Origin: Dysgonamonadaceae bacterium
GTDB lineage: Bacteria; Bacteroidota; Bacteroidia; Bacteroidales; Azobacteroidaceae
Assembly: GCA_031272085.1 (NCBI GenBank)
Contig: JAISUN010000013.1
Coordinates: 1 to 32,605, forward strand
Direction of reading: 5' to 3'
DNA: 32,605 bases
The notes beneath the pieces were generated by a model, which did no database searches, was not told where the DNA came from, and saw nothing but the letters and a program-made list of their open reading frames with translations. Shown one piece after another: positions 1,128-18,850 of the stretch; positions within the stretch are counted from its first letter, which is position 1, and each line of letters opens with the position of its first letter. Made by a program: the position numbers and the translations under genes.

Positions 1128-2603
1128 CTAAAAAACTACTTTTGCTTTCTGGTTTCCTGCCGAAACAATATAAACTCCGTGAGCCGGAAGTTTCACGCTC
1201 ACAGTTTCTCCCGCAGCCTTACGGCTGTAAACCGGAATACCCTGTGCGTTGTAAACCGTAACTGTCTGGCCAAGAGCGTAACCGCTGATTTTCAGCAGTC
1301 CGCCTGCTGCAACTGCTTTCAAAGTTTGAGCGGCTGCAACGGCCTGAATGCCGGTTATGTCGTCGCCTCCTGCAACTCCTCTCAAAATGGGATAATCATT
1401 ACCTTCGTCTATTGCCCAGACGTCGGTAAAATTCCATCCGATAGCCTCGTAAGTAGCCTTTTGTTTCAGTTCGGCTTCTGTCTTGTCAAGCCCGGAGCCA
1501 CCTGTGGCGCTTGTGCTTGAAACAGTAGCGCCTTTAACAATCATTTCCGAATATCCTAAATTGTCGGCTATTACGATATAACCGCCCGACGTGTGCGAAG
1601 GATAAATACGTGCTGCGGTGCCGGCGTTTATCAGTTCGGTATTGGCGGCAACGCAACTTGAAATTGTTATGGGATTAACGGTGCCTCCTCTATCGTAGAG
1701 CCGTCCCGATATTCCTCCAACTCTGGCATCGGCGCTGCTTGCTCCGTCAACAGTGCCTTGCGTCAAGCATCGAGTAATGGTAACGGGGTCGTAATCGGCG
1801 GCAGATTGATAGGGCCGGCCGACTATGCCGCCCAAAAAATTGGCTCCCGACTCTCTTGTGGTAGCAATATCGGCATTTACCGAACAGTCTGATACTGTAA
1901 TGCTTCCGCCTGCGTTATTTCCGGCTGCCAGTTGGCCTGCAATTCCGCCTGCATAAAGAAATGCGCCGTTGATGTTGCCTGTTGCGGTGCATTTAGTTAT
2001 GTTGATTTTGCTTTTGCCTCCGGTGTAGATAATGGCATAACCAACAATTCCTCCTGCAAAGTTGTCGCCTGCCGCCTCGCTTAATACCCATGCGTCTTTT
2101 ACTAAAATATTGGAAATTGTAACATCTTCTGTGCCGACAGCATAGATGTAGCCGACCAAAGTTCCCGCATAACAAGCGCCGTCGCCTGTGCCGACATTGA
2201 TAAGCGGCTCTTCAAGAATTAGGTTTTTGATAGTTGCGCCGGAGCCTATAACCCCAAACAGACTGGGATAGGTAACATAGCCGGAAGCCGCTGCAAGATA
2301 ACTGTAAGTCAGGCCGGATATTGTGTGTCCGTCGCCGTCGAAAACGCCCATAAAAGCGCCTGCCCTCGTTGTGCAAATGCCTTGCCAGTTCAGGCCGCTC
2401 ATGTCGATGTCGTTAGCGAGTTTGAAATAAACGCCTACCTGCGCTCCATAACCGGAAATTGCTTTTAAATCGTCCGTAGTTTTAATAAGATACGGGTTGT
2501 CCGATGTCCCGCTGCCGCCTGATTGTGCAAAAACAGACAAAGTGAACAGCGATAAAGTGATAGCGATAACGCTTTTTGCCAAAATAGAGTAAATCTTTTT
2601 CAT
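1128..2603 (-). CDS. Secreted GLUG-repeat protein with C-terminal sorting-type domain
   Basis: 491 residues from the ATG at 2601-2603; a longer frame from 2663 exists, but the chosen start gives a clean signal peptide (MKKIYSILAKS, hydrophobic core, cut after VFA). The mature start SGGSGTSDNPYLIKT and KLANDIDMSG is the entry motif shared by all four GLUG proteins here. The body (about residues 90-370) holds repeated G-x-x-G-Y/G-I-V-G strands with short Cys-containing turns, as in GLUG-motif beta-helix surface proteins. The last 70 residues carry the shared tail ending LPAHGVYIVSAGNQKAKVVF, a sandwich domain of the kind used for T9SS export and surface attachment. Role unknown, probably adhesion or binding at the cell surface. 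A promoter-like box lies upstream and a terminator after it, so it can be its own unit. Confidence 0.85.
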   Translation of the reverse strand: MKKIYSILAKSVIAITLSLFTLSVFAQSGGSGTSDNPYLIKTTDDLKAISGYGAQVGVYFKLANDIDMSGLNWQGICTTRAGAFMGVFDGDGHTISGLTYSYLAAASGYVTYPSLFGVIGSGATIKNLILEEPLINVGTGDGACYAGTLVGYIYAVGTEDVTISNILVKDAWVLSEAAGDNFAGGIVGYAIIYTGGKSKINITKCTATGNINGAFLYAGGIAGQLAAGNNAGGSITVSDCSVNADIATTRESGANFLGGIVGRPYQSAADYDPVTITRCLTQGTVDGASSADARVGGISGRLYDRGGTVNPITISSCVAANTELINAGTAARIYPSHTSGGYIVIADNLGYSEMIVKGATVSSTSATGGSGLDKTEAELKQKATYEAIGWNFTDVWAIDEGNDYPILRGVAGGDDITGIQAVAAAQTLKAVAAGGLLKISGYALGQTVTVYNAQGIPVYSRKAAGETVSVKLPAHGVYIVSAGNQKAKVVF

Positions 2604-2650
2604 ACACATCTGAATTTTATTTGTTAAACACATAATTAATAATATCCCTG

Positions 2651-2658
2651 CAAATATA
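2651..2658 (-). promoter_or_regulatory. Candidate -7 box for the 491-residue GLUG gene
   Basis: The minus strand reads TATATTTG here, matching TAnnTTTG, about 48 bp before the start at 2603. No convincing -33 TTTG is visible at the right distance. Confidence 0.45.
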
Positions 2659-2752
2659 AACAAATATTTTGTAAATAAAGTGGAAAAGTAGAAAAATATT
2701 ATAAATTTTCCATATTTTCTGGAAATATTTCAGAAAATAATGTCATATAGCG

Positions 2753-2786
2753 AAAAAAGCGGCGCGGAATCAAAATTCTGCGCCGC
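2753..2786 (-). terminator. Rho-independent terminator after the second GLUG gene
   Basis: 12-bp arms (2759-2770 and 2775-2786, GC-rich, one mispair or wobble) close a 4-base loop. On the minus strand the hairpin is followed directly by six T (complement of 2753-2758). It lies 22 bp after the stop of the gene at 2809. Confidence 0.9.
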
Positions 2787-2808
2787 CCGCTATTTACCTG
2801 TTTTCTGT

Positions 2809-4287
2809 TTAAAATAATACTTTTGCTTTCTGGTTTCCTGCCGAAACAATATAAACTCCGTGAGCCGGAAGTTTCACACTGACAGTTTCGCCCGCAGCCT
2901 TACGGCTGTAAACCGGAATACCATGTGCGTTGTAAACTGTAACTGTCTGGCCAAGAGCGTAACCGCTGATTTTCAGCAGTCCGCCTGCCGCAACTGCTTT
3001 CAAAGTTTGAGCGGCTGCAACGGCCTGAATGCCGGTTCCCGAAAAATCGCGGAGCCAAGGCATTGTCGAACCTTCGGTTATATCCCAAACATTGTCCATA
3101 TCCCAGCCGAGGGCAACGTAGGTCGCTTTTTGCATCAGTTGGGCGGATGTTTTCGACGTGCCTATGGAATCGCCGTTTGCAGTTTCTTTTACGCCGTTAA
3201 TCAGCAAATTATCATAAGCCAGATTGTTTTCCGCTACGTATTTTCCGCCGGCCGAATGTGCGCCGAAAATCCTGTGGCTTCTGCCGTCAGGATTTGTAAT
3301 CGTCGTTTGTGCGGCCACGTTATTTGTTAATGTTACCAAATTATCGCTTGCATACGTAGTACAAAGTATAAAACCGGCTATTCCGCCAAGCCTTGCTTCT
3401 TTGTTTATCGGGGCGCTGATTTTCCCTGCGGCAAGATTTTTTTCTATAATTATTTGGTCATAGACGTTTTCGCCGTCGCCTATCTGATTGGGAGCGCCGA
3501 CAATGCCTCCGAGATAGACCAATTCTTCGGTTGTCCGCGTAGTAGTTATATCAACGTCGGTCGAGCAGTTGGAAATAGTGGTGCTGCCTCCAACTTTTGT
3601 TGCATCGGCAACCAATCCGGCTATTCCGCCTGCAAACGAAAGAGAGCCGCTGATAGTTCCCTGTACCGAACAGCGGTTTATGGTAATGCTTGCCGCGCTG
3701 AAATCGCGAATATTGCCCACAATTCCGCCTGTATAGGCGTTTTTTTGAGCATTGTTCGTCAAAGTGAGGTTTTTGAAATGCACATTTTCGATAAGCACGT
3801 CGCTGTTGACGCTGCCTCTTGCGTCAATATACCCGACAAGAGCGCCTGCATTAGCGCTTCCGGCGCCGTCGGTAATATTAACCTGTGCATTTTCAAAAAT
3901 CAGATTTTTGATTACTGCGCCTCTTCCTGCTTTTGAGAAGAAACCTCTCGATTGAGTTGTAGTACTGGTTTGTCCGGCGTCTTTATTGATTTTCAAGCCT
4001 GTGATTTTGTGGCCGTCGCCGTCGAGAGAGCATTGCCAAGTGTCTAAAATTTGCCAGTCGGCGCCGCTCAAATCGATATCGTTTCCGAGTTTGAAATAAT
4101 ATCCGGTAATGTCGGCGGCGGCAAATGTAGCGAGTTCTGTTTCTAATTGAGTTCTATTCGTAATGATGTAGGGGTCGGAAGCCGTACCGCTTCCGCTGGA
4201 AAATTCCTGCGCAACCGCAGGCAGCGCGAAAAGCGTTAATAAAAACGCCGCAGCGCATCTTGCTAAATTGAAGTAATTCTGTTTCAT
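2809..4287 (-). CDS. Secreted GLUG-repeat protein with C-terminal sorting-type domain
   Basis: 492 residues. Signal peptide MKQNYFNLARCAAAFLLTLF with a cut near VAQ. The entry motif SSGSGTASDPYIIT and KLGNDIDLSG is followed by a beta-helix-like body (about 90-400) with recurring GGIVG, GGIAG and VGYI units, the GLUG pattern. The last 70 residues are nearly identical to those of the GLUG protein encoded at 1128-2603: only about six base differences over roughly 215 bp were counted by eye. The bodies differ much more. The start at 4287 is preceded by ACGTGT, like the GTGT before the start codons of the 1128 gene and of the protease gene at 11927. It lies 87 bp after the metallophosphoesterase gene with no -7 box seen between, so it may be reached by read-through. 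Ligand and function are unknown. Confidence 0.85.
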   Translation of the reverse strand: MKQNYFNLARCAAAFLLTLFALPAVAQEFSSGSGTASDPYIITNRTQLETELATFAAADITGYYFKLGNDIDLSGADWQILDTWQCSLDGDGHKITGLKINKDAGQTSTTTQSRGFFSKAGRGAVIKNLIFENAQVNITDGAGSANAGALVGYIDARGSVNSDVLIENVHFKNLTLTNNAQKNAYTGGIVGNIRDFSAASITINRCSVQGTISGSLSFAGGIAGLVADATKVGGSTTISNCSTDVDITTTRTTEELVYLGGIVGAPNQIGDGENVYDQIIIEKNLAAGKISAPINKEARLGGIAGFILCTTYASDNLVTLTNNVAAQTTITNPDGRSHRIFGAHSAGGKYVAENNLAYDNLLINGVKETANGDSIGTSKTSAQLMQKATYVALGWDMDNVWDITEGSTMPWLRDFSGTGIQAVAAAQTLKAVAAGGLLKISGYALGQTVTVYNAHGIPVYSRKAAGETVSVKLPAHGVYIVSAGNQKAKVLF

Positions 4288-4336
4288 ACACGTTTTTTTA
4301 GTTTATTAATTAATGTTTTTTTACCTCTTGCCCCCA

Positions 4337-4357
4337 TACCCCTTTTTTAGGGGGGTA
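4337..4357. repeat. Short inverted repeat between phosphoesterase and GLUG genes
   Basis: TACCCC (4337-4342) and GGGGTA (4352-4357) form a 6-bp stem with a T-rich loop, flanked by further C and G runs. On the minus strand there is no T run after the stem, so it is not a standard terminator for the upstream gene. It may slow polymerase or be processed; no role can be assigned. Confidence 0.4.
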
Positions 4358-4374
4358 GAGGATTGAGGATATTT

Positions 4375-5856
4375 TTATTTCTTTATTTCAAATTTTACTG
4401 TTTCCGCTTTTGCTTTACCTTCGGCAAAAAGCAGATATACTCCGGGCGGGAGGGCGGAAACGTCGAGAGTATCGGCATCGGCAGCAGGTTTAGATGATTT
4501 TACAACCTGTCCGCCAAGCGTGAAGATGGTCAGTTTATCCATTTTCCAGTCCGCAACAACATTCAGAGTTCCGGCAGTAGGATTGGGATAAACTTTCAGT
4601 GAAGCGTCGTCGATTTGCACGGCTTCGATTCCTGTGTTCAAGGGAGTTACGGGCAGTTGCATCTGTTTTTTGGCTTTCTTGTCGTAAAGAATGTAAGTTT
4701 CGCCGTTTTTCAGAATCAAAATCCCGCGTCCGCGGCCTGCCGTCATAGCATTTTGCGTTTGAACATTGACGTTTACAACCCTCGAATCGTACTCGGAATA
4801 AGCAATCGGGCCGTCGCCGTTATTATGTTCCGTATGGCCGATTATTATCCGCTCTACTTCGTATCTTTTCAGCAGGTTGTGCAGATAAGAGATGGAAAGG
4901 TGCAATGTCCGCGGCTCTGTCGGATTTTCGGTATAACCGCCTTTGGCGACATAATCGGGAATCATTCCGCGGTACCAGAGAGGTCCGCCGCTTGATGAAC
5001 TTGTGCCGAACAGGAAACTGTCGCGGCCGCTGGCTCTCATAATTTGCGTACTGACTGTTTGATTCACTTCCGGAATGGAATAATTCCTCAAATAGAAACT
5101 GCCGCTCAAACCGGCGTGAACATACAGGTCGTTGCCGATTATCTGTATCAAATTGCACTCTTTCAGCCAGCGTCCGATTTCGGTATTTTCGTTCAGAAAC
5201 AGCGAACCGTACTGATTCGTCTGATTGAAATATTTTGTGCAAATATCAATGTATTTTTGATAGATATAACCGTTTGAGTAGCAGGACGATGAGTTGCGCA
5301 ATTCCATTTCTTCGTGGTTTCCGTAAACGAAATACACTTCGCCGCCTGCGTCGCGTGCTTCCTGTTGCAGTTTGTAAACAAACCAGAAAATTGTGGTGGC
5401 GTCGTCGCCACGGTCGAGAATATCGCCGATAATCATCAGTTCGTTGTTGCGGAACGCCCAGTTGAGGTTGTCGTCGATAACTCCCGAAGATTTAAGGATA
5501 GAAACAAAGGGCGCCCATTTAGCGTGCGGGTCGCTGATTACGACAAGCGAATCGGGCGCCTCGCGCCGCCAGTCGATGCGCGAAATCGGGTGCAATGTTA
5601 CCTGAAATTTGGAACGTCGTCCCTTATCCGGCTCGTTTACGGTAGAATATACGTCGAAAGTGAAATTTTGCGGCAATTCCGCGTAAACGTCTTCGTGAAT
5701 GTAGCCCAGAGTATCTACTGTAACGACTTTCACGCCTTCCGAAGTATAGAAAATATACGGGCCGTCGGGCTGATTAGGCGAAAGGTCGGGTGATTGCGCC
5801 TTACCGCCTGCAATCAGGACAATAAAAAAACAGAAAAATAATGGTAGTTTTTTCAT
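4375..5856 (-). CDS. Secreted calcineurin-like metallophosphoesterase with T9SS sorting domain
   Basis: 493 residues with a signal peptide (MKKLPLFFCFFIVLIAGGKA). The PPP-type metal-site motifs are all present in order: SDPH (Asp109, His111), GDILDRG (Asp145 onward), GNHE (Asn180, His181), VHAG (His247) and GHTEHN (His341). A GPLWYRG segment near residue 291 recalls Shewanella-like protein phosphatases. The family hydrolyses phosphoesters with two metal ions; the substrate is unknown, and the signal peptide places it outside the cytoplasm. Residues about 410-493 are a classical type A sorting domain (VYPNPTAGTLNV ... LPPGVYLL ... KFEIKK). This differs from the tail of the neighbouring GLUG proteins. 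The start is 2 bp after the stop of the 687-residue GLUG gene, so the two are tightly coupled. Confidence 0.9.
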   Translation of the reverse strand: MKKLPLFFCFFIVLIAGGKAQSPDLSPNQPDGPYIFYTSEGVKVVTVDTLGYIHEDVYAELPQNFTFDVYSTVNEPDKGRRSKFQVTLHPISRIDWRREAPDSLVVISDPHAKWAPFVSILKSSGVIDDNLNWAFRNNELMIIGDILDRGDDATTIFWFVYKLQQEARDAGGEVYFVYGNHEEMELRNSSSCYSNGYIYQKYIDICTKYFNQTNQYGSLFLNENTEIGRWLKECNLIQIIGNDLYVHAGLSGSFYLRNYSIPEVNQTVSTQIMRASGRDSFLFGTSSSSGGPLWYRGMIPDYVAKGGYTENPTEPRTLHLSISYLHNLLKRYEVERIIIGHTEHNNGDGPIAYSEYDSRVVNVNVQTQNAMTAGRGRGILILKNGETYILYDKKAKKQMQLPVTPLNTGIEAVQIDDASLKVYPNPTAGTLNVVADWKMDKLTIFTLGGQVVKSSKPAADADTLDVSALPPGVYLLFAEGKAKAETVKFEIKK

Positions 5857-5858
5857 TA

Positions 5859-7922
5859 TTAATAAATTACTTTAATGTGGTTAATGCTTGTCGAAACAAT
5901 GTAAAGGCCGTGCGCCGGCAATTTTACATTCAGTTCCGAACTGTTGGTTTTTGCGCTGTAAATTTTCACGCCCTGAACGTTGTAAACGCTTACTGTTTCA
6001 TTGAGGGCAAAGCCTTTGATTTTGAGGATTCCGCCGGAAACCGAAACAAGGAGCGGACTTTTTGCAACAGGGGCTTTTATGTCGGTCAAAAGTGGCCCCG
6101 GCTGCCATTTGAAATATGGCGTCGATGTTCCTTCGTCGATTTTCCAGATATTTGCAAAATCCCAATTCGTGAACGTGGCCTGCTGTTTCAGTTCCGTAGC
6201 GGTTTTGTTTGCTCCTGCTGCTATGGAGGCGTCGCTTCCAAGTGCGTTCAAGCCGGTTTTGTTTGAATTGAAAAAGCAATTTTCAATCGTTGCCGCGCCT
6301 GCATCGCTCTGTCCGATAATTCCGCCGACGTTTGAGCCGGTCGTAACGAAAGTCCCTGAAAAATAGCAGTTTGAAACATAGGCAGTATTCGCCGGACTTA
6401 CATAGCCGCATATACCGCCCGCTTGGCTTGCGCCTTCGACAGTACCGATAAAGTAGCAGTTTGAAACGCTGTTGGCAGCCGAACTCCGGATATTTCCGGC
6501 CAATCCGCCGATGTAATTGGTGCCTTTTATATAGCCGCCGGCAAAAACATTCTGAATCGCAACATCAGCGTCGCAATAGCCGACAAGAGCGCCAACGTAA
6601 TTATGGCCGTAAATTCCCTTACTGCCGAGATTAAGCCCCAGATTTTTGATGCTGCTGCCCGCGCCGAGTTGCGCAAACAAGCCGACTTTATCGTTGTAGC
6701 GGTTAAGCCAGAGGCCTTTTATAACGTGGTTATCCCCGTCGAGAACAGCGTAAAAAGTCGTTATATTTCCTGTGGCTGCGCTTAATCCGAACGGCAGCCA
6801 GCCGTCGGCCGGAGCCTCCATATCAATATAGTCGGTCATATCAATATTGTCGGCTAACTTGTAGTAATAAGGCGCATCCGCTGTTCCTGTGTGGCTTCTG
6901 ATGCTGTTCAGTTGAAGCGGAGTAGTTATCAGCCACGGGTTTTCGGCTGTGCCGTCGCCGCCGGCAAATTCTGTCCTGTAATATGGAGTAGTAACGTCTT
7001 CCTGAATTTCCCAGATGTAATCGAAATCCCAATCAACATAAGTTGCCTGTTTTTTCATTTCGGCAAGCGTTTTTCCCGCGTCGGGAGCGACAGATGCGTT
7101 GTTTCCAACGGCATTTAAGCCCGGATTCAAATCCTTGGGGAAGTAGCAACTCGTGATTGTTACGTCGCCTGTGCCTTCGTTCAAGCCGACAAGAGCGCCT
7201 TTATGGCTGCCGGTAGCCGTTACGGTTCCCGAAAAATAAGAATTTTCGATATATCCGGTGCGACTGTCGGCTACATAACCGCCCAAACCGCCGATGGTAT
7301 CGACGCCTTCTACCGTGCCTTCAAAATAGCAGTTGTAAACTTTTTCCGAAGCGCGGCTCCTAATCATTCCCGAAAGGCCGCCGACCGCAACCCGGCCTTT
7401 GACGCTGCCTTTGACGTGTATTTGCGTAAAAGCCACGTTATTGTTGTTGTAGCCGTTTATTGCGCCTACGCGGTCTTTCCCGACAATTCCTCCCTTGGCT
7501 TCATCCAAAATTACTGTCAGGTAATTGACTTTACTGCCGGAACTTAATTTTGCAAATAAAGCAATATGGTTAAATGCAGGCCGGTTAATCCAGAGGCCGG
7601 TTATTTTGTGGTCGCCGCCGTCGAAAATAAGGTACGAGGCGGTTTCAACGCCGCTTTCGTTCAACCCGATAGGCAGCCAGCCGTCCGTCGGCCATTGGGC
7701 ATTGATGTAATCGCTTAAATCAATATCGTTGGCCAAGCGGTAGTAAACTTTGGTATCGCTGCTTTCGCCTAAATGATTGCGAATTTCGCTTAACTGGGCT
7801 GCTGTTTTTATTACCCAGGGGTCAGACGATGTGCCACTTCCGCTCTCGAATTGTGCCTGAACGTTTGAAACGAAAAGGCACAAAACAGCGCAGAACAAAT
7901 ATAATGCTCTTGTATTCAGCAT
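5859..7922 (-). CDS. Secreted GLUG-repeat protein with two tandem repeat modules
   Basis: 687 residues; signal peptide MLNTRALYLFCAVLCLFVSN, cut near VQA. Two copies of the same module follow: the first opens with ESGSGTSSDPWVIKTAAQL and LANDIDLSDYI (about 25-60), the second with AGGDGTAENPWLITTPLQL and LADNIDMTDYI (about 320-360). Each contains DGWLP, GLWINR or GLWLNR, VGALVGY or VGAINGY, and paired NCYF-x-GTVEG GLUG strands, so the gene arose by internal duplication. The end is the shared sorting-type tail (KLPAHGLYIVS, last residues HIKVIY), with the AGNQKAK stretch replaced by a divergent one. It lies 52 bp after the 405-residue GLUG gene and 2 bp before the phosphoesterase gene; all three probably form one transcript. 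Surface binding or adhesion is likely but unproven. Confidence 0.85.
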   Translation of the reverse strand: MLNTRALYLFCAVLCLFVSNVQAQFESGSGTSSDPWVIKTAAQLSEIRNHLGESSDTKVYYRLANDIDLSDYINAQWPTDGWLPIGLNESGVETASYLIFDGGDHKITGLWINRPAFNHIALFAKLSSGSKVNYLTVILDEAKGGIVGKDRVGAINGYNNNNVAFTQIHVKGSVKGRVAVGGLSGMIRSRASEKVYNCYFEGTVEGVDTIGGLGGYVADSRTGYIENSYFSGTVTATGSHKGALVGLNEGTGDVTITSCYFPKDLNPGLNAVGNNASVAPDAGKTLAEMKKQATYVDWDFDYIWEIQEDVTTPYYRTEFAGGDGTAENPWLITTPLQLNSIRSHTGTADAPYYYKLADNIDMTDYIDMEAPADGWLPFGLSAATGNITTFYAVLDGDNHVIKGLWLNRYNDKVGLFAQLGAGSSIKNLGLNLGSKGIYGHNYVGALVGYCDADVAIQNVFAGGYIKGTNYIGGLAGNIRSSAANSVSNCYFIGTVEGASQAGGICGYVSPANTAYVSNCYFSGTFVTTGSNVGGIIGQSDAGAATIENCFFNSNKTGLNALGSDASIAAGANKTATELKQQATFTNWDFANIWKIDEGTSTPYFKWQPGPLLTDIKAPVAKSPLLVSVSGGILKIKGFALNETVSVYNVQGVKIYSAKTNSSELNVKLPAHGLYIVSTSINHIKVIY

Positions 7923-7974
7923 AAAAATATGAATAAGAATTAGTTAAGTTAAAATTAAAAATAAAGCCGCTTTC

Positions 7975-9192
7975 TCAATAAACCGTTTTCGCTTTTTGAG
8001 CGCCTGCCGAAACAATGTAAACTCCGTGAGCGGGCAAATTTACGTTCACTTCCGAGCCTTTGGCTTTTGCGCTGTAAATTTTTGCACCCGAAACGGTATA
8101 AACATTGATTGTTTCATTCGGGGTAAAGCCTTTGATTCTCAAAGTGTTGCCGATAGTCGTAACTACAAGCGCGTTTTTTGCCGCTACGGGAGCGTTTATG
8201 CCGAGGAAAATCGGGCCTGATTGCCACTTAAAATAAGGAGTGGACGTTTCTTCGTCTATTTTCCATACATTTGTGAAGTCCCAATTTTCGTAAGTAGCCT
8301 GTTTTTTCATATCGGCAAGCGATTTTCCCGCGTCTGGCATCAAAGCCGCATTGTTTCCAACGCCGTTCATACCGGGATTCAGGTCGCTTACAAAATAATT
8401 GTTGTTAAGCACGGTAACGCCGCTTCCTTCTTCACGGAGGCCTAACAAGCCGCCTACATTCGTGCCGCTGCTTTTCACGTATCCCAGAAAATAGCAGTTT
8501 TCGATGTAGCAATTACGGGTGCTGCCCACTATGCCGCCGAGACCGCCTACGCGCTCCGTGCCTTCTACTGTTCCTACAAAGTAACAATCTCTAATAGGAA
8601 TATTGTAAGAATAGCGGCTTTTAACATCGCCCGTAAGACCGCCGACGGAATCCACGCCGTGAACCGTACCTTTTATAAATACCTGCTCAAACGAGAGGTT
8701 GAGGTTGTTTACGCCGGTCAGTGCGCCTACTTTGCTGTGTCCGACAATTCCGCCCTTGTCCTCGTTCATAATGATTCCAAGATTTTTGATTTTGCTGTAT
8801 GTATTAGCATCGTAAGCCGTTAATCGACCGAATAAGCCAACGAAATCGGCATTGGGACGGTTAATCCACAGTCCGGAAATTGTGTGGTAATCGCCGTCAA
8901 CAACGACATAAAAACCTGCGCCGAAGTCGCTTACCGGCCAACCGATAGGAAGCCAGCCTTCTGTCGGCCACTGCGAATCGATATACTCCGTCAAGTCAAT
9001 GTCGTTGGCTAATTTGAAATACTTTGAACCAAATGTACTTCCATTGTTGTCCCGTATTGCGCTTAACTGGGCTGCCGTTTTGATTATATACGGGTCGTCG
9101 GCTGTTCCGGAGCCGCTGTCATACTGCGCCTGAACTTTTGAAACAAAGATGCAGGCGAAGATTAATACCAAAAAAGTAATTGTTCTTTTCAT
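7975..9192 (-). CDS. Secreted GLUG-repeat protein, first gene of the surface-protein operon
   Basis: 405 residues. Signal peptide MKRTITFLVLIFACIFVSK with a cut at VQA. The mature start YDSGSGTADDPYIIKTAAQL and KLANDIDLTEYI matches the first module of the 687-residue protein, including QWPTEGWLPIG and GLWINRP. It carries one module with GLUG units (VGGLTGDVKSR, NCYFLGYVKSS, VGGLLG). The tail from about residue 330 (LRIKGFTPNETINVYTVSGA to LPAHGVYIVSAGAQKAKTVY) is the shared sorting-type domain. The gene is closest to the 687-residue neighbour, pointing to tandem gene duplication. It begins after a 346-bp gap with a candidate minus-strand promoter, so it probably leads the operon running down to the phosphoesterase and perhaps to the GLUG gene at 2809. 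Confidence 0.85.
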   Translation of the reverse strand: MKRTITFLVLIFACIFVSKVQAQYDSGSGTADDPYIIKTAAQLSAIRDNNGSTFGSKYFKLANDIDLTEYIDSQWPTEGWLPIGWPVSDFGAGFYVVVDGDYHTISGLWINRPNADFVGLFGRLTAYDANTYSKIKNLGIIMNEDKGGIVGHSKVGALTGVNNLNLSFEQVFIKGTVHGVDSVGGLTGDVKSRYSYNIPIRDCYFVGTVEGTERVGGLGGIVGSTRNCYIENCYFLGYVKSSGTNVGGLLGLREEGSGVTVLNNNYFVSDLNPGMNGVGNNAALMPDAGKSLADMKKQATYENWDFTNVWKIDEETSTPYFKWQSGPIFLGINAPVAAKNALVVTTIGNTLRIKGFTPNETINVYTVSGAKIYSAKAKGSEVNVNLPAHGVYIVSAGAQKAKTVY

Positions 9193-11926: not shown

Positions 11927-14900
11927 ATGAAACCTAAATTTATTAAATTAGTTGCTGCCTTGTGGATAACATTCTTTGCAGCACAAAACGGTTTATTTGC
12001 GCAAAAAACGTTTAATATTAACGACAATGCAACTAATGCCGTACTTCGCGCTTCTACACCGGAAGTGGCAGTTAATGAGGTTTTCGGAAAGGCTTTGCAA
12101 ACGCGGCCGTTTTCGCTAAATCAGCAACTGCGCTCGCTCACCGCCCAAAATAAGGGCGACTTCTTGACGCTTGATTTTTTTGATAATAAGCAGTATAAGG
12201 CTGTTATACAGCAGGTTACAAATCTTAAAAATGGGGATGTTACAATTACTTCCAAAATTGAAGGTTCTGCTACCGGATTTATGATCATGTCAGTAACAAA
12301 GCAGGGAGTAACTTTAAGTGCGAATATTCCTGAAACTGACGATGCGTATATTCTTGAACTTAAAAATGGAAAACCATTTTTATCCCAATATAGAATATCT
12401 GATTTAGATAAGTATGCTGACCCTTGCAAGGATGTAACCTCGTTTAATGAGAATATTAATCAATCTTTAAGAGCGGCAACAAGTGCTTGTTCGCCGAATT
12501 ATCCTTCCGATGAAGATGTTACTATTAAGGTATTATTCTTATATACGCCAGCTGCTGATCAATATGCAAATGCCAATATAAGTGGTGGTATAAATGGGGC
12601 AATTAATACTGCACTTGAAAAGGCAAATTTAGTTCATGACAATTCTCTTACCAAAGTGCATCTTGTGTATGCAGGAGATGGTCCGGTACCAATAAATTAT
12701 ACAGAATTTTACGACGCAAATATGTCTCCTTATCAAAATATGACAAGTACAGACCTTGATACTATGACATATAATCGTCATCCCGCATTTGATAATATCC
12801 CTGCTTTGAGAAAACAGTTAGAGGCCGACTTGGTTTGCCTTGTGGCAAAATATGATGATGGAACAGGAGGACTTGCATGGCGGCTAAATAGCAGTTATGG
12901 CTATGAAAACGGCGACCCTGGACACGGATACTCAATTGTTAGGGTACAGCAAATTAGTTTGACAGGTATGGGTGGATACACTGTTGTACATGAGTTAGGA
13001 CACAATATGGGTTGTTTCCATCATCCTTTACAAGGTTCTCCTCAATATTTATTATTTCCTTATTCAAACGGTTGGAGAGGTACGCTTTCAAATGGGAACA
13101 ATGCATCTACTGTAATGACTTATGAAACTATTCCCGGATATGACGGTTATTATCCCAATATTCCGTATTTTTCCAGCCCTAATATAACCTATCCGGGGAC
13201 AACAACACCGATAGGCAATGCTGAGGAGTCTAACAACGCTCTTACTATAAGATACAGCAAATCAGTCATTTCTTTGTATGGAGAAATCCTCAACACTTCA
13301 TTAACTAATCTGACTGTCAGTTCCGGTACGCTATCGCCTGTTTTTTCGTCCGATGTTTATGAATATAATGTAAGTGTTGGGTACGGCGTTGATAATATAA
13401 CAATTACCGGCACTCCTAATTATGATTGCGCTGTTGTAACCGGCGACGGAGCAAAAAGTTTGGCTGTTGGCAATAATTCATTTACTGTTCAAGTCAGGTC
13501 GCATAAGTCTTCTGTATATAAGACATATACAATAAATATTGTGCGTTTACCAGATGCTTGTGCTTCATACCAGAGCGCTCCTATCTTTTCAAACGATAAT
13601 ATTACGGATGTAGTCGGAAGCGATGTATTTAATTTATGCATGTCTGCTGCGCTTCCAGCCGAACAAAGAAATAGTTTCACAGTTGATTTTGTTGGTTCGG
13701 TTGCTTTAAAAATTAGAGATGGACAAAATAGTTATGGCTGTTATAACTTTGGTTCAAGAAATTCCGGATTTAAAAAAATATTAGTTTCTAAAACAGGAAG
13801 TTATACATTTAATACAGGTTATAATATTTTCTCATTATATAATTCTGAAACGCCATTATGCGAAAGTTTCATTAATTCAACATTATATTACAATGGTTCA
13901 AATGCTTCTTTCACATATGGTTTTTCGCAGAATTTACAAGCAAATACTGTTTACTATATAAGAGATTATCAAAGTTCATCGGAAGAGCCAACATCATTCT
14001 CAATAACAAATACTATTGGCGGAACTTGCTATGAAGTTTCCGATATTCCTTACGGCATTGATTACACCTACATTGCCGTTTCCAATGCCGACAACAAAAT
14101 AAAAGTGCAGAGTGAGACAGGCGATTTCAGAGGCTTAACCCCCGGTACTTACACCATTTATGGGGCGCCATACAGTTCTGTTGGCAACGACCCTTCAACT
14201 TTTGTAGGTAAAACCCTCAGTGAAATTTCCACAAGCGATTGCGTGATACAGAGTTCCACCTCAATGACCATAACGGTAACAGCAGACGAATACCGCTGGA
14301 CGCCGCAGACAAATTCCACATCATGGACAAGTTCCAACAACTGGACGCCTGCCGGAATTCCTACGGGTACATCAATTGTAACTATTCCGCAAAGCGCGAC
14401 ATATCCCGTTTTGACAAGTTCCGAGGCTGCAACGGCAAAGGATATTATCTTCGAACCCGGCGCAGAAATCGGCCGCCAAGACTATTTGACTTACGAAAGA
14501 GCCTTTGTACAGTTGGATTTGAACCGTACAACCGCTCGTAATAAGTGGCACTCGATTTCCGTTCCGTTTAAGGAAATGTTTTATGCCGACTTCAATTTGG
14601 GCGGACTACCTAAATCGTGGCTCGACCGACTTGAAGTAAACAGTAGCGAAAGTTTGGAGTGGATTTTTGAAAACGATTATTCAAAAAAATACAGTTTGGG
14701 CGACCCGATTTCGGTATGGTTCGACACTTCCGATGCAGATAATTCCACTGTAATAAAAGGATTAAATGCAACAAGCAATGATATTCTGGAATTGCCGTTT
14801 GTCGGTAATCCCCGCGTCGATGCAGATGTGCATTATAACCAAAGTTATACTGCTCCAACGCATATTGTGCGTGAAATAAATTCAACATTTGAACCGCAAA

Positions 14901-16036
14901 CTACCGGAACAACAACAACATTCAGCCGCAGCAACGCCGGCGATACTTATAAATTAGCCGACGCAAAGGTTGTAACTCAAACTCTGAATTTCGGTTCGAC
15001 AAACTATGTTTATGTCGGTAATCCGTTTATGAGTTCGATTAATTTTCATACCTTTGCAAACCAATTTACATCAACATTTAAAGGTAATTACAGGATTTGG
15101 GTCAATGGAGGCTCCAATGGCAAAGGCTATGCCGGTTATGAAGTTGGTACCGGTTCTTTCGGATTTGGAGCAGGAACTGCTTACGCCCCCGGATATGGAA
15201 GATATATAAAACCGATGACAGGCTTTATTTTAGAGCGAAGTACCTCAAATACAAGCACCCTTCCGGTTACAATTCAATTCGGTTTAGAAAAAATAGGAGC
15301 GACAAATGCTTCTTCAAGCGAGGGCGAGGAACCTTCCGTCAATACAAACCTGCTTAAAATTGATTTGAGCAACGTAAATGCAAGTTGGCGGACGTCAATA
15401 GCCATTCGTGAAAACGGCCGGCCGACAGTAAGCGCAGCCGATGTTACCAAGTTTATTACTGCTATTACCGAAACGCCCGAAATTTATTCTTTCAAACCCG
15501 CCGACGTCGATTTGCAAACGGCTTTGGACGTCAATATTCTTGGCCCCGTAAGCGGTAAATGCCTGATTCCTTTGGGAATAAGGACAAGTTTCCTCGGCGA
15601 TATGGATATGCTGATTAGCGGAATGGACAGTTTTGATGCAAATGTAAGCCTGATTGATACATACGAGCCTAAAACAATAGACTTGACAGGAAAAACGGAT
15701 TACAAGTATCATTTCGTTTATTTCCCCCTTACGGAAAAAGGAAAGGTTGTCGATAATAAAGACCGTTTCTTTATACTTTTGGCTCCGAAAAATGTAACAG
15801 GTCTTAATCAGAGTTCGGCGCAAACTGTTGTATTAGGCTTGAATGGCGCAATTAAGGCCGTTTCGACCTCTGAAATACGCAGCATTGCGGTTTACACTTT
15901 GCAAGGAACTGCCGTTTATTCCAATCCTTCGGTTGGAGCCTTGGAAACCCGTATCGACGGCCTCGCGCAGGGAGTTTACCTTGTAAAAGTAACTACCGGC
16001 GATGCAGTGCGTACAGCAAAAGTAATTGTCAAATAA
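11927..16036 (+). CDS. Secreted metzincin (reprolysin-like) metalloprotease with T9SS tail
   Basis: 1369 residues. A signal peptide (to about residue 26, ending GLFAQ) and a propeptide-like region come first. The zinc motif HELGHNMGCFH is at residues 355-365 (HExxHxxGxxH), with the Met-turn VMTY around Met397: a complete metzincin signature, closest to the reprolysin-like M12 group. Residues about 455-540 look like a cadherin-like beta-sandwich (LTNLTVSSGTLSPVFSSDVY). The second half, from about residue 705, contains strand-rich text with WTSSNNWTPAGIPTGTSIVT, common in large Bacteroidota exported proteins. The last 75 residues form a sorting domain (IAVYTLQGTAVYSN ... LAQGVYLVKVTTGDAVRTAK). 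It probably cuts proteins at or outside the cell surface. Base composition drops strongly in the protease half. It is 15 bp upstream of the small ORF at 16052. Confidence 0.92.
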   Translation: MKPKFIKLVAALWITFFAAQNGLFAQKTFNINDNATNAVLRASTPEVAVNEVFGKALQTRPFSLNQQLRSLTAQNKGDFLTLDFFDNKQYKAVIQQVTNLKNGDVTITSKIEGSATGFMIMSVTKQGVTLSANIPETDDAYILELKNGKPFLSQYRISDLDKYADPCKDVTSFNENINQSLRAATSACSPNYPSDEDVTIKVLFLYTPAADQYANANISGGINGAINTALEKANLVHDNSLTKVHLVYAGDGPVPINYTEFYDANMSPYQNMTSTDLDTMTYNRHPAFDNIPALRKQLEADLVCLVAKYDDGTGGLAWRLNSSYGYENGDPGHGYSIVRVQQISLTGMGGYTVVHELGHNMGCFHHPLQGSPQYLLFPYSNGWRGTLSNGNNASTVMTYETIPGYDGYYPNIPYFSSPNITYPGTTTPIGNAEESNNALTIRYSKSVISLYGEILNTSLTNLTVSSGTLSPVFSSDVYEYNVSVGYGVDNITITGTPNYDCAVVTGDGAKSLAVGNNSFTVQVRSHKSSVYKTYTINIVRLPDACASYQSAPIFSNDNITDVVGSDVFNLCMSAALPAEQRNSFTVDFVGSVALKIRDGQNSYGCYNFGSRNSGFKKILVSKTGSYTFNTGYNIFSLYNSETPLCESFINSTLYYNGSNASFTYGFSQNLQANTVYYIRDYQSSSEEPTSFSITNTIGGTCYEVSDIPYGIDYTYIAVSNADNKIKVQSETGDFRGLTPGTYTIYGAPYSSVGNDPSTFVGKTLSEISTSDCVIQSSTSMTITVTADEYRWTPQTNSTSWTSSNNWTPAGIPTGTSIVTIPQSATYPVLTSSEAATAKDIIFEPGAEIGRQDYLTYERAFVQLDLNRTTARNKWHSISVPFKEMFYADFNLGGLPKSWLDRLEVNSSESLEWIFENDYSKKYSLGDPISVWFDTSDADNSTVIKGLNATSNDILELPFVGNPRVDADVHYNQSYTAPTHIVREINSTFEPQTTGTTTTFSRSNAGDTYKLADAKVVTQTLNFGSTNYVYVGNPFMSSINFHTFANQFTSTFKGNYRIWVNGGSNGKGYAGYEVGTGSFGFGAGTAYAPGYGRYIKPMTGFILERSTSNTSTLPVTIQFGLEKIGATNASSSEGEEPSVNTNLLKIDLSNVNASWRTSIAIRENGRPTVSAADVTKFITAITETPEIYSFKPADVDLQTALDVNILGPVSGKCLIPLGIRTSFLGDMDMLISGMDSFDANVSLIDTYEPKTIDLTGKTDYKYHFVYFPLTEKGKVVDNKDRFFILLAPKNVTGLNQSSAQTVVLGLNGAIKAVSTSEIRSIAVYTLQGTAVYSNPSVGALETRIDGLAQGVYLVKVTTGDAVRTAKVIVK

Positions 16037-16051
16037 TTAACACTAACTAAT

Positions 16052-16192
16052 ATGAAAACATATCTGAATAACAAGAGTCTATGCGGGGAGTATTATACTG
16101 CTCCCACTATTGAAATATTTGAGATTAAGTTGGAAAATGGGTTTCAAGGCGACATTCCAACCAATCCGGATCCAGAAAACGATGAGTGGTAG
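16052..16192 (+). CDS. 46-residue small protein, candidate peptide precursor
   Basis: ATG at 16052, stop TAG at 16190-16192, followed at once by TAG TAA in frame. The product starts MKTYLNNKSLCGEYYTAPTI, continues EIFEIKLENGFQGD and ends IPTNPDPENDEW. It has no signal peptide and no membrane segment. The YTAPTIEIFEI-x-x-ENG part recalls the many short Bacteroidota proteins with a Y-x-x-P-x-I/V-E core, which I know only as uncharacterised. The C-terminal third is rich in Pro, Asp, Glu and Asn. It lies 15 bp after the protease gene and 39 bp before the ATPase gene, inside the operon. Its position beside ATPase, peptidase, PqqD-like and nucleotidyltransferase genes suggests the substrate of a peptide-modification pathway. 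That is inference; coding itself is likely but unproven. Confidence 0.6.
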   Translation: MKTYLNNKSLCGEYYTAPTIEIFEIKLENGFQGDIPTNPDPENDEW

Positions 16193-16231
16193 TAGTAAAG
16201 GTTTATATCAAATAATATTGAAAAATTAAGT

Positions 16232-17101
16232 TTGGTAGCGGCTGAATATTACAAGATAGCAAACCATGTCCTCCGGATAGAGAAGAAAAGCCTGAAACGC
16301 GTTTTGGGCTTCTCTTCTTTTTTTGTTCCGGAAGCGGAAAATCAGAGTCAAAGTCCTATACTTGAAATAGTTACAGATGATTCGCTGCTCGACCGTATGG
16401 ACAAGCCGTTCAGGAGTTCCGCTTATATGGATACTCTTACAGAACTTGGCATAAAAGATGGAACCTATATTTACCGGTATTCGGAATCGGGCGTTACGCA
16501 GGTTTTGGCCGAAATCAGGCAGGAAAACGGCTTATTCCGCGCCGCGGTAAAAGGAATGGACACAGTACGTCCCTATAATTTCGGGCTTGCCCTGTGGATG
16601 ATTTTCGGAATAGCGGCAGTACATCACCGCACAGTTTCCGTCCATTCATCGACAATCGTTTACGAGGGCCGCGCGGTAATGTTTCTCGGCGAATCGGGAA
16701 CCGGCAAAAGCACTCAAACCCGCCTCTGGACGCAGAACGTCGCCGGCGCAGAAATCCTGAACGACGACAGCCCCTTCGTCAATACCGAGCGCGGAACGCT
16801 TGTCTATGGCTCGCCTTGGAGCGGGAAGGCCAATTATTACCGCAACGAGCATTATCCGATAGCGGCTATCGTGCGGCTTCGTCAGGCTCCGCGCAACGAA
16901 ATCCGCCGTTTGAGCCGCTTGGAGGCTATCGGGGCGCTCTTGCCGTCCTGCACGCCTGCCTTCGCTTACGACGGGCATTTGTCCTCGCTTGTTCACGGCA
17001 TCGTTTCGGACGTTCTATCCGAAACTCCTGTCTATATGCTCGACTGCTTGCCTGACGCCGCGGCGGTTCGCTTAACGTTTGATACGGTTTTTGGACGATG
17101 A
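16232..17101 (+). CDS. HPr-kinase-like ATPase of a peptide-maturation cassette
   Basis: 289 residues from a TTG start at 16232; no ATG lies nearby in frame, so the exact start is open. A Walker A loop GESGTGKS (153-160) follows the strand AVMFL, and NDDSPFV (177-183) supplies the acidic metal site. GSPWSGK (193-199) is a second phosphate-type loop. These features match the HPr kinase / PEP carboxykinase-like fold (HprK C-terminal domain). HprK-like kinases occur in lasso-peptide clusters such as paeninodin, where they phosphorylate the precursor. Here the likely substrate is the 46-residue peptide or an associated protein; this is inference. The stop overlaps the next start (ATGA), so translation is coupled. 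Confidence 0.82.
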   Translation: MVAAEYYKIANHVLRIEKKSLKRVLGFSSFFVPEAENQSQSPILEIVTDDSLLDRMDKPFRSSAYMDTLTELGIKDGTYIYRYSESGVTQVLAEIRQENGLFRAAVKGMDTVRPYNFGLALWMIFGIAAVHHRTVSVHSSTIVYEGRAVMFLGESGTGKSTQTRLWTQNVAGAEILNDDSPFVNTERGTLVYGSPWSGKANYYRNEHYPIAAIVRLRQAPRNEIRRLSRLEAIGALLPSCTPAFAYDGHLSSLVHGIVSDVLSETPVYMLDCLPDAAAVRLTFDTVFGR

Positions 17102-17532
17102 ATTTAGACTGGTTGCTGACAGAAACGAAAGATTATCTTCGCGATGGTCAAGATGTGATTTTGCGGGTTACGGGAAACAGTATGTTGCCGTATCTTCGCA
17201 GCGGGAAAGACCTTGTGGTGTTAAGCCCGATACAGCCTGCCGATTTGAAAGCCGGAAAGATAGTACTTTTCCAGCGCGAAGAAAAAATAGTGTGCCACAG
17301 GATTATCGGACGGCAGGGCGAACTGTTTGTCATTCAGGGCGATGGCGTGCTGCGGAACAAAGATTTTGTCCCGGAATCCGATATTTTTGCCGCAGTGCAT
17401 AAAATTGTCCGTCCGAATGGTAAGGAAGTATCGACCGATTCGATTCCGGCAAAATGCTACTGGTTCTTTTGGCGTGCAATTTCGCCTTTCCGCCGCGTTG
17501 TGCTTGGGGTTTTGAGATTAATTTTGAATTGA
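17098..17532 (+). CDS. S24/S26-family peptidase, signal-peptidase-like (Ser/His type)
   Basis: 144 residues. The box VTGNSMLPYLRSGK contains the nucleophile candidate Ser28, and IVCHRIIG gives His67 where bacterial signal peptidase I has Lys; a His here is typical of the SipW/Sec11 (S26B) group. A GDGVLRNKD segment (about 81-89) fits the last conserved box. There is no N-terminal membrane anchor; the end (about 118-144, YWFFWRAISPFRRVVLGVLR) is hydrophobic and basic and could touch the membrane. It may cleave the small peptide or another partner in the cassette; the family alone does not prove this. The ATG overlaps the upstream stop by 4 bp. Confidence 0.82.
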   Translation: MNLDWLLTETKDYLRDGQDVILRVTGNSMLPYLRSGKDLVVLSPIQPADLKAGKIVLFQREEKIVCHRIIGRQGELFVIQGDGVLRNKDFVPESDIFAAVHKIVRPNGKEVSTDSIPAKCYWFFWRAISPFRRVVLGVLRLILN

Positions 17533-17551
17533 GAATTATTTATTATTTTTG
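17523..17551 (+). promoter_or_regulatory. Possible internal promoter for the PqqD-like and nucleotidyltransferase genes
   Basis: TTTG (17523-17526), 17 bp, TATTTTTG (17544-17551), 20 bp before the start at 17571. The spacing is shorter than usual, so support is modest. Confidence 0.35.
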
Positions 17552-17570
17552 CAAAAAAAAATTAAAAATT

Positions 17571-17843
17571 ATGAAACTAAAAAAATCAGCCGTCTTGAAA
17601 GATATAGCGGGCGAAAAAGTGGTGATAATTCAGGGAAAAACAGGAGTGGATATGACAAAAATAATATCGTTCAACCCTGTTGCAGCGTGGCTTTGGAGCG
17701 AGTTTTTTGGCGATACGGACTTTTCGGAAGCCGATGTTGCGCAAAAAATTGTCCGGCAGTACGGCCTCGAACAAAGCCGCGCCGAAGAAGACGCCGCCAA
17801 ATGGCTTGCCCAACTGAAAGACGCTAAACTGATAGAAGAATGA
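17571..17843 (+). CDS. PqqD-like peptide-recognition protein
   Basis: 90 residues from the ATG at 17571; the frame is open further upstream, but that part overlaps the previous gene and gives no sensible protein. The layout is that of PqqD/RRE proteins: N-terminal strands (SAVLKDIAGEKVVIIQGK), the core FNPVAAWLWSEF matching the usual N-x-x-a-x-x-i/l-W pattern, then helices with ADVAQKIVRQYGLEQSRAEE and AKWLAQLKDAKLIEE at the end. PqqD-like domains bind leader peptides of ribosomally made, modified peptides and hand them to the enzymes. It overlaps the next start by 4 bp (ATGA). In this cassette it is the strongest hint that the pathway acts on a peptide. Confidence 0.85.
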   Translation: MKLKKSAVLKDIAGEKVVIIQGKTGVDMTKIISFNPVAAWLWSEFFGDTDFSEADVAQKIVRQYGLEQSRAEEDAAKWLAQLKDAKLIEE

Positions 17844-18850
17844 AAGACCCTGTCTTGAAACGCTTACTTGCTCTGCTTCAATATGTTGCATACGAGCGTC
17901 AGCCCGACGCCGCTCTGTTTGAAAATATGAGCGGAGCCGACTGGGAAGCGGTTTTCAAACGCGCTGTCCGCGAGCGGCTCACAGCCGTCGCTTTCGACGG
18001 ATTGTCAGGACTGCCTCAAAACCTGTTTCCGCAGCGTAATTTGCTGCTTCGCTGGGCTGCCGGCGCGGATGCTGTCGAGCAGAAAAGCCGCAAAATGTTG
18101 AAAGTTGAAGGCGAAGTGAAGAAAATCCTGTCCGAAAACTCGCTGCCGATGTTAGTTATCAAAGGCTCGACCATTGCGGCGTTTTACAAAAATCCCGAAC
18201 ATCGGGAATACAGCGATATCGACATATATACCGCCGACATTGAGCGCAGCACGCATTTGCTGACGGAAGCGGGCGCGAAGGAAGAATACAGGAGTTTCGT
18301 ACATTCGGCGATGTCGTTCAGAGGAGCAACGGTGGAAAATCATTCTCATTTTGTAAGCGCGTGGCTGACCGATGGCAGAGCCTTGATAGACAATCGTTTG
18401 CGTGAGATAGCCTTTGACGAAAACCGCCGCGCCGATTTTATTTTGCTGCATTATTTGGCTCACGCGATTGCTCATTTTGCGTCCGGCTGGCAGTTGCGGT
18501 TTTTCTACGACTGGGCTGTTTTGCTCCATTCCCTGCGCGGGCAGTGGAATAAGCAGGATTTTGAGGATATTATCGAGCGAGCGGATTTCAGAAAAATGGC
18601 CGACGTATTTAATTCAATATCAACTGATTATATGAAAATTCCCGCCGATGAAATTCCGGCTTTCGCGCGGGATGAAAAACTGATTGCATTTGCCCTTCGC
18701 GATATGGAAAAGCCCATTAATGTCGGACTGTCGCGGGCTTTCAACCGTTTTCAAAAGTTTTGGATGCAGGGGACTCCCGGCCTGTTTTGGAAAAAAGGCT
18801 GGCATTATTTCAAACATTCTGTTTTGAAAATCAAAATTTCTGACAATTAG
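17840..18850 (+). CDS. Nucleotidyltransferase-fold protein of the cassette
   Basis: 336 residues. The core VIKGSTIAAFY (about 106-116) and YSDIDIYTAD (124-133, Asp126 and Asp128 as metal ligands) match the uncharacterised nucleotidyltransferase family found near PqqD, kinase and Asn-synthetase genes (PF14907-type). After it come HFVSAW, a LLHYLAHAIAHFASGWQLRFFYDWAV stretch typical of this family, and a helical C-terminal part. Members occur in lasso-peptide clusters such as paeninodin, where kinase and nucleotidyltransferase tailor the peptide. Here it is the last gene of the operon. Its substrate, nucleotide and exact role are unknown. The gene ends 22 bp from the stop of a convergent pseudogene with no terminator seen. 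Confidence 0.85.
   Translation: MKDPVLKRLLALLQYVAYERQPDAALFENMSGADWEAVFKRAVRERLTAVAFDGLSGLPQNLFPQRNLLLRWAAGADAVEQKSRKMLKVEGEVKKILSENSLPMLVIKGSTIAAFYKNPEHREYSDIDIYTADIERSTHLLTEAGAKEEYRSFVHSAMSFRGATVENHSHFVSAWLTDGRALIDNRLREIAFDENRRADFILLHYLAHAIAHFASGWQLRFFYDWAVLLHSLRGQWNKQDFEDIIERADFRKMADVFNSISTDYMKIPADEIPAFARDEKLIAFALRDMEKPINVGLSRAFNRFQKFWMQGTPGLFWKKGWHYFKHSVLKIKISDN

Follow-up and report, generated by a model that had tools for sequence, protein, structure and literature searches.

We analysed a 32,605-nucleotide stretch of DNA from a Dysgonamonadaceae bacterium (contig JAISUN010000013.1 of assembly GCA_031272085.1; hereafter the window), within which five adjacent genes running in one direction encode a 46-residue peptide, an HprK-like kinase, an S26 peptidase, a PqqD-like recognition element (RRE) for ribosomally synthesized and post-translationally modified peptides (RiPPs), and an NTP_transf_5 nucleotidyltransferase-fold protein. 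We consider it likely, with a probability of about 0.8, that this cassette is the Bacteroidota version of the pathway for linear polyphosphorylated peptides (LPP), published in May 2026 from the lpp biosynthetic gene cluster (BGC) of Paenibacillus alginolyticus (PMC13381572). The original prediction, made from the window alone, had been of an undescribed peptide-modification cassette related to the tailoring genes of paeninodin-type lasso clusters. The relationship holds, the RRE, kinase and nucleotidyltransferase being in common, but the same gene set is already on record in Bacillota. Two things go beyond LPP as published: the occurrence in another phylum, and the placing of precursor genes beside genes for surface proteins across the genome.

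The published pathway is composed of a precursor (LppA), a kinase (LppK), an RRE (LppB), a signal-peptidase-like leader peptidase (LppS), an exporter (LppD) and an NTP transferase (LppN). LppB fixes the Tyr and Pro of the YxxP motif through Asp70 and Asn33, LppK adds phosphates to Ser3 of the core, and LppS cuts LppA (motif YxxPxVLxHQxIxFETxxS) after FET to give the core AQSNWK (PMC13381572). The window cassette resembles this system in its discrete RRE, HprK-like kinase, archaeal-type signal peptidase and NTP transferase. It also resembles it in that no cyclase was found, an absence that is normal for an LPP counterpart. Its authors describe LPP as restricted to Bacillota, with an unknown role, and report one to three precursors per BGC and frequent location of the Bacilli loci within capsule loci. 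The main text of that paper never mentions surface, the type IX secretion system (T9SS) or any word beginning Bacteroid, and no description of the Bacteroidota system appeared among the papers listed by our literature searches. Nor does the main text of a survey of Bacteroidales RiPPs (PMC10352776) contain HprK, S26, lipoprotein or nucleotidyltransferase, and a term search of an RRE survey (PMC12710340) matched none of six terms.

All five genes were confirmed at exactly the predicted positions, with 4-bp overlaps between the HprK and S26 genes and between the PqqD and NTP_transf_5 genes, and short gaps at the remaining junctions. The LppK-like kinase (16232..17101, + strand as for all features of the cassette, with a TTG start as called) contains the motifs GESGTGKST (Walker A), NDD and GSPWSGK, which are invariant across 33 aligned sequences. 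Its assignment by sequence is weak (TIGR04352, 1e-4), and a sequence search of the PDB found only ABC-type P-loops; the HprK/PEPCK identity came from a fold search, in which the predicted structure (pLDDT 94) resembled structures of PEP carboxykinase and HPr kinase/phosphatase. We rejected membership of the HPr-rel-A system (TIGR04352/TIGR04353), which also pairs an HprK-related kinase with a PqqD-like protein, at scores far under the curated cut-offs (21.2 versus 200 bits and 15.5 versus 35 bits). The LppS-like Ser/His peptidase (17098..17532) matches TIGR02228 at 4e-11, below the cut-off of that model, and Peptidase_S24 above its cut-off. Its Ser28, His67 and Asp82 are invariant in 17 aligned sequences, and a PDB profile search matched it to SEC11, marking it as a relative of the archaeal and endoplasmic reticulum-type signal peptidases.

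The LppB-like RRE (17571..17843; PF05402, 4e-11, above cut-off) has an Asn35 and an Asp74 that do not vary among the aligned sequences (18 and 19) and that are like Asn33 and Asp70 of LppB in kind, an equivalence drawn by motif and not from an alignment to LppB. The five best PDB fold matches of its model (pLDDT 90) are leader-bound lasso B1 proteins, including 5v1u, 5v1v and 6jx3; PDB sequence searches did not return LppB (9x8z). The LppN-like protein (17840..18850; PF14907, 2e-31, above cut-off) contains Lys108-Gly109 and the nucleotidyltransferase DxD motif D126xD128, both invariant in 16 aligned sequences.

The 46-residue LppA-like peptide (16052..16192) matches no NCBIfam or Pfam family. 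Its leader motif, YTAPTIEIFEIKLENGF, is common to an 18-member alignment (A3), and the wider family collected from the loci described below numbers 78 distinct peptides. Two of these, cut by contig ends, lack YxxP and were dropped, and the remaining 76 were aligned. The family consensus is YxAPx[VI]ExxEVxVEKGF/AxS followed by a variable acidic tail (the slash marks the predicted cleavage site). Counting from the Tyr as 1, Tyr and Pro are present in 76/76 peptides, Glu14 in 74, Gly16 in 75 and Phe17 in 66. Three residues beyond the Gly-aromatic (or Gly-Ile) pair stands a Ser in 73 of the 76, the exceptions being the window peptide (Asp), L154 (Thr) and L187 (Tyr). Conservation stops after this Ser3, and the cores have a mean length of 17 residues, contain 23% Asp plus Glu and 3% Lys plus Arg, and end in Trp, Phe or Tyr in 33/76 cases. 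Compared with LppA, the family has the same YxxPx[VI] and final AxS, whereas the middle of the leader differs (EVxVEKGF in place of LxHQxIxFET), as do the short acidic cores.

Among 21 copies from Bacteroides rodentium, codon differences in the leader number 576, 483 and 1428 at the first, second and third positions, a bias that fits translation of the ORF; the corresponding counts for the core are 1102, 1425 and 1465, without such a bias towards the third position. The leader is under purifying selection and the core not. From column conservation and homology to the YxxPxV of LppA, the segment Y15-F31 of the window peptide (YxxPxIE ... GF; 16094..16144) is predicted to be the RRE-binding site and to end at the predicted cleavage site, leaving a predicted core, QGDIPTNPDPENDEW (16145..16189). 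Cleavage after AxS, following the -3/-1 rule of signal peptidases, was considered and dropped in favour of GF/AxS because Glu is common directly after GF (13/76), a point weighed together with LPP processing (PMC13381572). A second precursor in the source genome (G000, 2.6 Mb and 82% complete, of which the window is contig C26) lies on contig C114 next to the gene for a T9SS protein 2,050 or more residues long; it reads GF/EPS and has Ser3.

The S26 protein was used as a query against 45 genomes of the family and had a match in 7, including that of the window; the six loci in other genomes (L010-L015) were examined at length. A small ORF lies directly 5' of the HprK gene in the window and in five of these six (L010-L014). 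In all four close relatives with the gene order HprK - S26 - PqqD - NTP_transf_5 (L010-L013), an ABC transporter gene follows immediately, such that all six LppA-K-B-S-D-N functions, the MsbA-like exporter included, are present there. The ABC proteins of L011-L013 are 549-582 residues long; in L010 the ABC ORF has 302 residues and the HprK gene is split into two ORFs. The L011 exporter has homologues elsewhere at 38-48% identity, and one in L013 at 95%. The lack of an export gene, as originally predicted, is thus correct for the window contig but not for the wider cassette family, to which the absence does not extend. In L014 the HprK-S26 pair is followed by other genes. L015, in genome G027 of the same genus, has the order HprK-ABC-NTP-PqqD-S26 inside an exopolysaccharide (EPS) glycosyltransferase cluster, and G027 has only weak peptide matches, elsewhere in the genome (E 7e-4 and 9e-4).

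A kinase scan of genome contigs gave at least 570 related stretches, from which 79 loci, mostly from Bacteroidales, were kept. Profile matches to the ORFs of 87 stretches (the 79 loci and eight others) number 79 for HprK, 76 for S26, 66 for ABC, 34 for PqqD and 26 for NTP_transf_5, and HprK-S26 therefore emerges as the constant pair, with PqqD and NTP_transf_5 often not seen alongside. One kinase match was found in 88 of the 92 kinase-positive genomes of a sample of the order, and two matches in 4; these, together with a Bacteroides oleiciplenus locus holding two kinases (L046), break any rule of one cassette per genome. By reading, a second PqqD subtype (MKIKxGFxLR-like) occurs in the same kind of cassette in L236, L237, L240, L244 and L246-L248. 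Other leader types were also seen, with the peptide YEAPKAEVIEINNVAVLMGS beside L240 and a further one, YEAPAIEVTDIETEQNILGGSG, in L245.

The small ORF had been expected to stay with the other genes. In the family it does: of the 45 genomes, 7 have the S26 protein, 8 the peptide and 7 both (hypergeometric 2e-7, relatedness ignored), so that all seven S26-positive genomes have the peptide. In the order sample (393 genomes; at most six kinase candidates per genome scored), 92 genomes have the kinase at E<=1e-3, 13 the peptide and 11 both (p 4e-6, relatedness ignored). Among the 30 genomes with a strong kinase match (E<1e-25), the peptide was found in 10, and in 14 with a broader profile, although of the 4 additions G272 and G389 were themselves rows of the profile and the best match of G154 contains a stop. 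Co-occurrence of cassette and peptide is therefore strong in the family and not universal in the order. Several of the strong-kinase genomes lacking a detected GFAxS peptide carry, by reading, the second PqqD subtype, and at two loci the peptides end their leaders differently (ILGGSG and VLMGS). In a sample of 395 genomes of the phylum, the S26 protein matched in 22 and the GFAxS peptide in 2, both of which also have S26 and belong to the order of the window. All ten genomes behind named loci have peptide matches, between 1 and 24 each; these genomes were hand-chosen from the 79 loci, and six of them supplied rows to the profile, the other four giving 7, 6, 5 and 4 matches.

By homology to LPP, from which the chemistry of the Bacteroidota cassette is taken, the RRE would bind YxxPx[VI] in the leader. 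One or more phosphates would be added to Ser3 of the core by the HprK-like kinase, and the S26-like peptidase would remove the leader at GF/AxS. The NTP_transf_5 protein might modify the phosphorylated peptide further, and the MsbA-like ABC protein encoded in the relatives would export it. The suggestion in the original prediction of a phosphorylating system is probably right.

The Bacteroidota precursors differ from those of LPP in their siting. They are mostly dispersed over the genome, away from the cassette, and many cassette genomes have several, with B. rodentium reaching 24 matches; some kinase loci have none nearby, and the idea that the peptide always accompanies the cassette was abandoned. 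Using loose patterns for lipoprotein-like and T9SS-tailed genes on the same strand within 150 bp, we found a surface-protein neighbour for 59 of the 78 precursors: a lipoprotein-like gene comes immediately downstream of 48, and 11, including that of the window, have a T9SS-tailed gene immediately upstream. Applied to 1,234 other genes, these patterns flag 182. The sets are not independent, as B. rodentium supplies 23 of the 78 precursors and every one of these has a lipoprotein-like gene downstream; without this species the count is 36/55. The other precursors have a lipoprotein-like gene upstream (1), only a cassette gene (3), another large gene (6), no neighbour (7) or a contig end (2). Two of the three with only a cassette gene are truncated at the start of the contig, and a T9SS-like tail is recognizable at that point; L171, counted under other large genes, scores as T9SS. 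The downstream partners are 182 to 2,231 residues long, the short ones being in part broken or cut reading frames. The T9SS partners picked from relatives all exceed the TIGR04183 cut-off of 23 (10/10; 26.9-51.7 bits). Eight partners were scanned for domains, and some contain BspA-type leucine-rich repeats, PKD domains, or a C10 peptidase with an Ig-like domain; the rest have no clear Pfam match.

The window itself follows the T9SS arrangement. A metzincin-type protease of 1,369 residues (11927..16036, + strand; Reprolysin_5, 1e-10) is encoded upstream, and its gene stops 16 bp ahead of the small ORF. The protein carries a type A sorting domain for T9SS (TIGR04183, 33.9 bits). This candidate surface protein seems to be the partner of the window precursor, as T9SS cargo upstream of homologous precursors recurs in relatives, and the guess that the exported protease belongs to the same unit as the cassette seems borne out. 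The link between precursor and surface protein is one of gene order.

We tentatively propose, at somewhat under even odds, that LPP-like phosphopeptides of Bacteroidota are dedicated partners of surface proteins and not stand-alone products. A central cassette of kinase, peptidase, RRE and exporter would act in trans to mature many precursors, every one of which would form a two-gene module with the gene for a lipoprotein or a T9SS cargo. The exported linear phosphopeptide would then act at the cell surface with the protein encoded next door, which it may decorate, anchor or help to assemble. The siting of the precursors is a first lead on the function of LPP-type peptides, which may act together with, or upon, proteins presented to the host and to neighbours by gut commensals and related bacteria. 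Similar machinery occurs in many Bacteroidales, although the LPP paper confines LPP to Bacillota, and a Bacteroides with two dozen precursors offers a ready system in which to study its role.

Several findings weigh against these proposals. The window cassette has no ABC exporter gene beside it, such that the exporter found in LPP is present in the relatives and not here, and a search of G000 (82% complete) gave no close homologue of it. Export through another G000 transporter was considered and not adopted, the matches being generic: the best are one to an MsbA-like protein, at about 30% identity, and one to a transporter whose N-terminal part reads as C39-type (39% over 215 residues). The window precursor has Asp in place of the Ser3 found in the second G000 peptide and in most of the family, and may not be phosphorylated at this position. 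Given this Asp and the missing exporter, the window cassette may act on the C114 precursor, or may be partly decayed even though its motifs are intact. The exact bond cleaved is uncertain because KGF replaces FET and the spacing from Tyr to Ser differs by one residue, and LppN had no activity or visible effect in the published system (PMC13381572). The full gene set is not always together, as the PqqD and NTP_transf_5 counts above indicate. At E<=1e-3, 16 of the 30 strong-kinase genomes of the order lack the peptide, and three genomes have the peptide and no kinase match: G209 (99% complete), whose GFAQS peptide adjoins a lipoprotein-like gene, G281 (65%) and G037 (87%). For 19 of the 78 precursors there is no flagged lipoprotein downstream or T9SS protein upstream. 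Finally, G043 has identical cores at three genome sites (L173, L174 and L175), where L174 and L175 each adjoin a T9SS protein, not the same one, and the neighbour of L173 is truncated at a contig end. These identical cores argue against a ligand specific to each partner, and weaken the idea of partner-specific cores.

The four enzymes could instead form a general accessory system for capsule or EPS, with the GFAxS peptides as one lineage-specific substrate or as a coincidence of genome architecture. The EPS setting of L015, the kinase-positive genomes without a detected peptide and the capsule loci that often harbour LPP in Bacilli are in keeping with this explanation. We nevertheless regard it as unlikely, as the peptide directly precedes HprK in the window and in every long family locus except L015, and three-quarters of the precursors adjoin surface-protein genes.

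Less probable still is that the small peptide regulates the adjacent surface-protein gene, as a leader peptide or translation-coupling ORF, while the enzymes act elsewhere. The tight, orientation-specific adjacency would suit such a role, as would a conserved block of about 90 columns in B. rodentium extending from upstream of the gene into its first codons (87% identity over 19 copies, compared with 47% further upstream). However, in the T9SS species the ORF lies downstream of its partner, which makes attenuation of that partner impossible. The amino-acid conservation with third-position change, the co-occurrence of peptide and cassette, and the LPP precedent of a similar leader (PMC13381572) also argue against a regulatory role. 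Many of the B. rodentium precursor copies (L215-L230) lie at the ends of short contigs; the block looks like an assembly-breaking repeat family, and might recombine.

A paeninodin-type lasso cluster with its cyclase and B2 protease elsewhere in the genome, making a phosphorylated lasso, would account for the [Y/W]xxP-type leader, the lasso B1-like RRE, the kinase and nucleotidyltransferase in common, and the weak matches of the lasso model NF033524, the sole NCBIfam model to appear, to 3 of 18 peptides (best E 0.0035), but it is very improbable and was rejected on the missing B2 and the RRE Asn35, which is Gly in paeninodin RREs (PMC13381572). As originally predicted, neither a cyclase nor a transglutaminase-like protease was found: B2 (PF13471) is above cut-off in none of ten cassette genomes, several of them incomplete, with one sub-cut-off match in G000, and an S26 peptidase is present instead. 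No macrolactam synthetase (Asn-synthetase-like C protein) was seen among the window genes by reading. Asn synthase is outside the 25 commonest Pfam families of 78 large neighbours, and Transglut_core3 outside the commonest families listed for 104 small neighbours, ranks at which one or two members of each are possible.

Outside the window, G000 has a second possible peptide cluster (L016; contig C68, 1133-9703). Like the window cassette it has an HprK-like protein, a PqqD-like ORF, an NTP_transf_5 protein (PF14907, above cut-off), an ABC transporter and small ORFs with YEKP; it differs in its radical-SAM-like proteins, in the Tyr-rich tails of its peptides and in that no S26 protein was found there. 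The PqqD-like ORF and four radical-SAM/SPASM-like proteins were recognized by reading only. Both small ORFs, at 7104-7295 and 7339-7506 on the minus strand, have a common YEKP...GSALYY motif as well as the Tyr-rich tails. Within the window, the minus strand of 1128-9192 encodes four secreted-looking proteins (511, 492, 687 and 405 residues) with similar repeat-like sequence and C-terminal tails.

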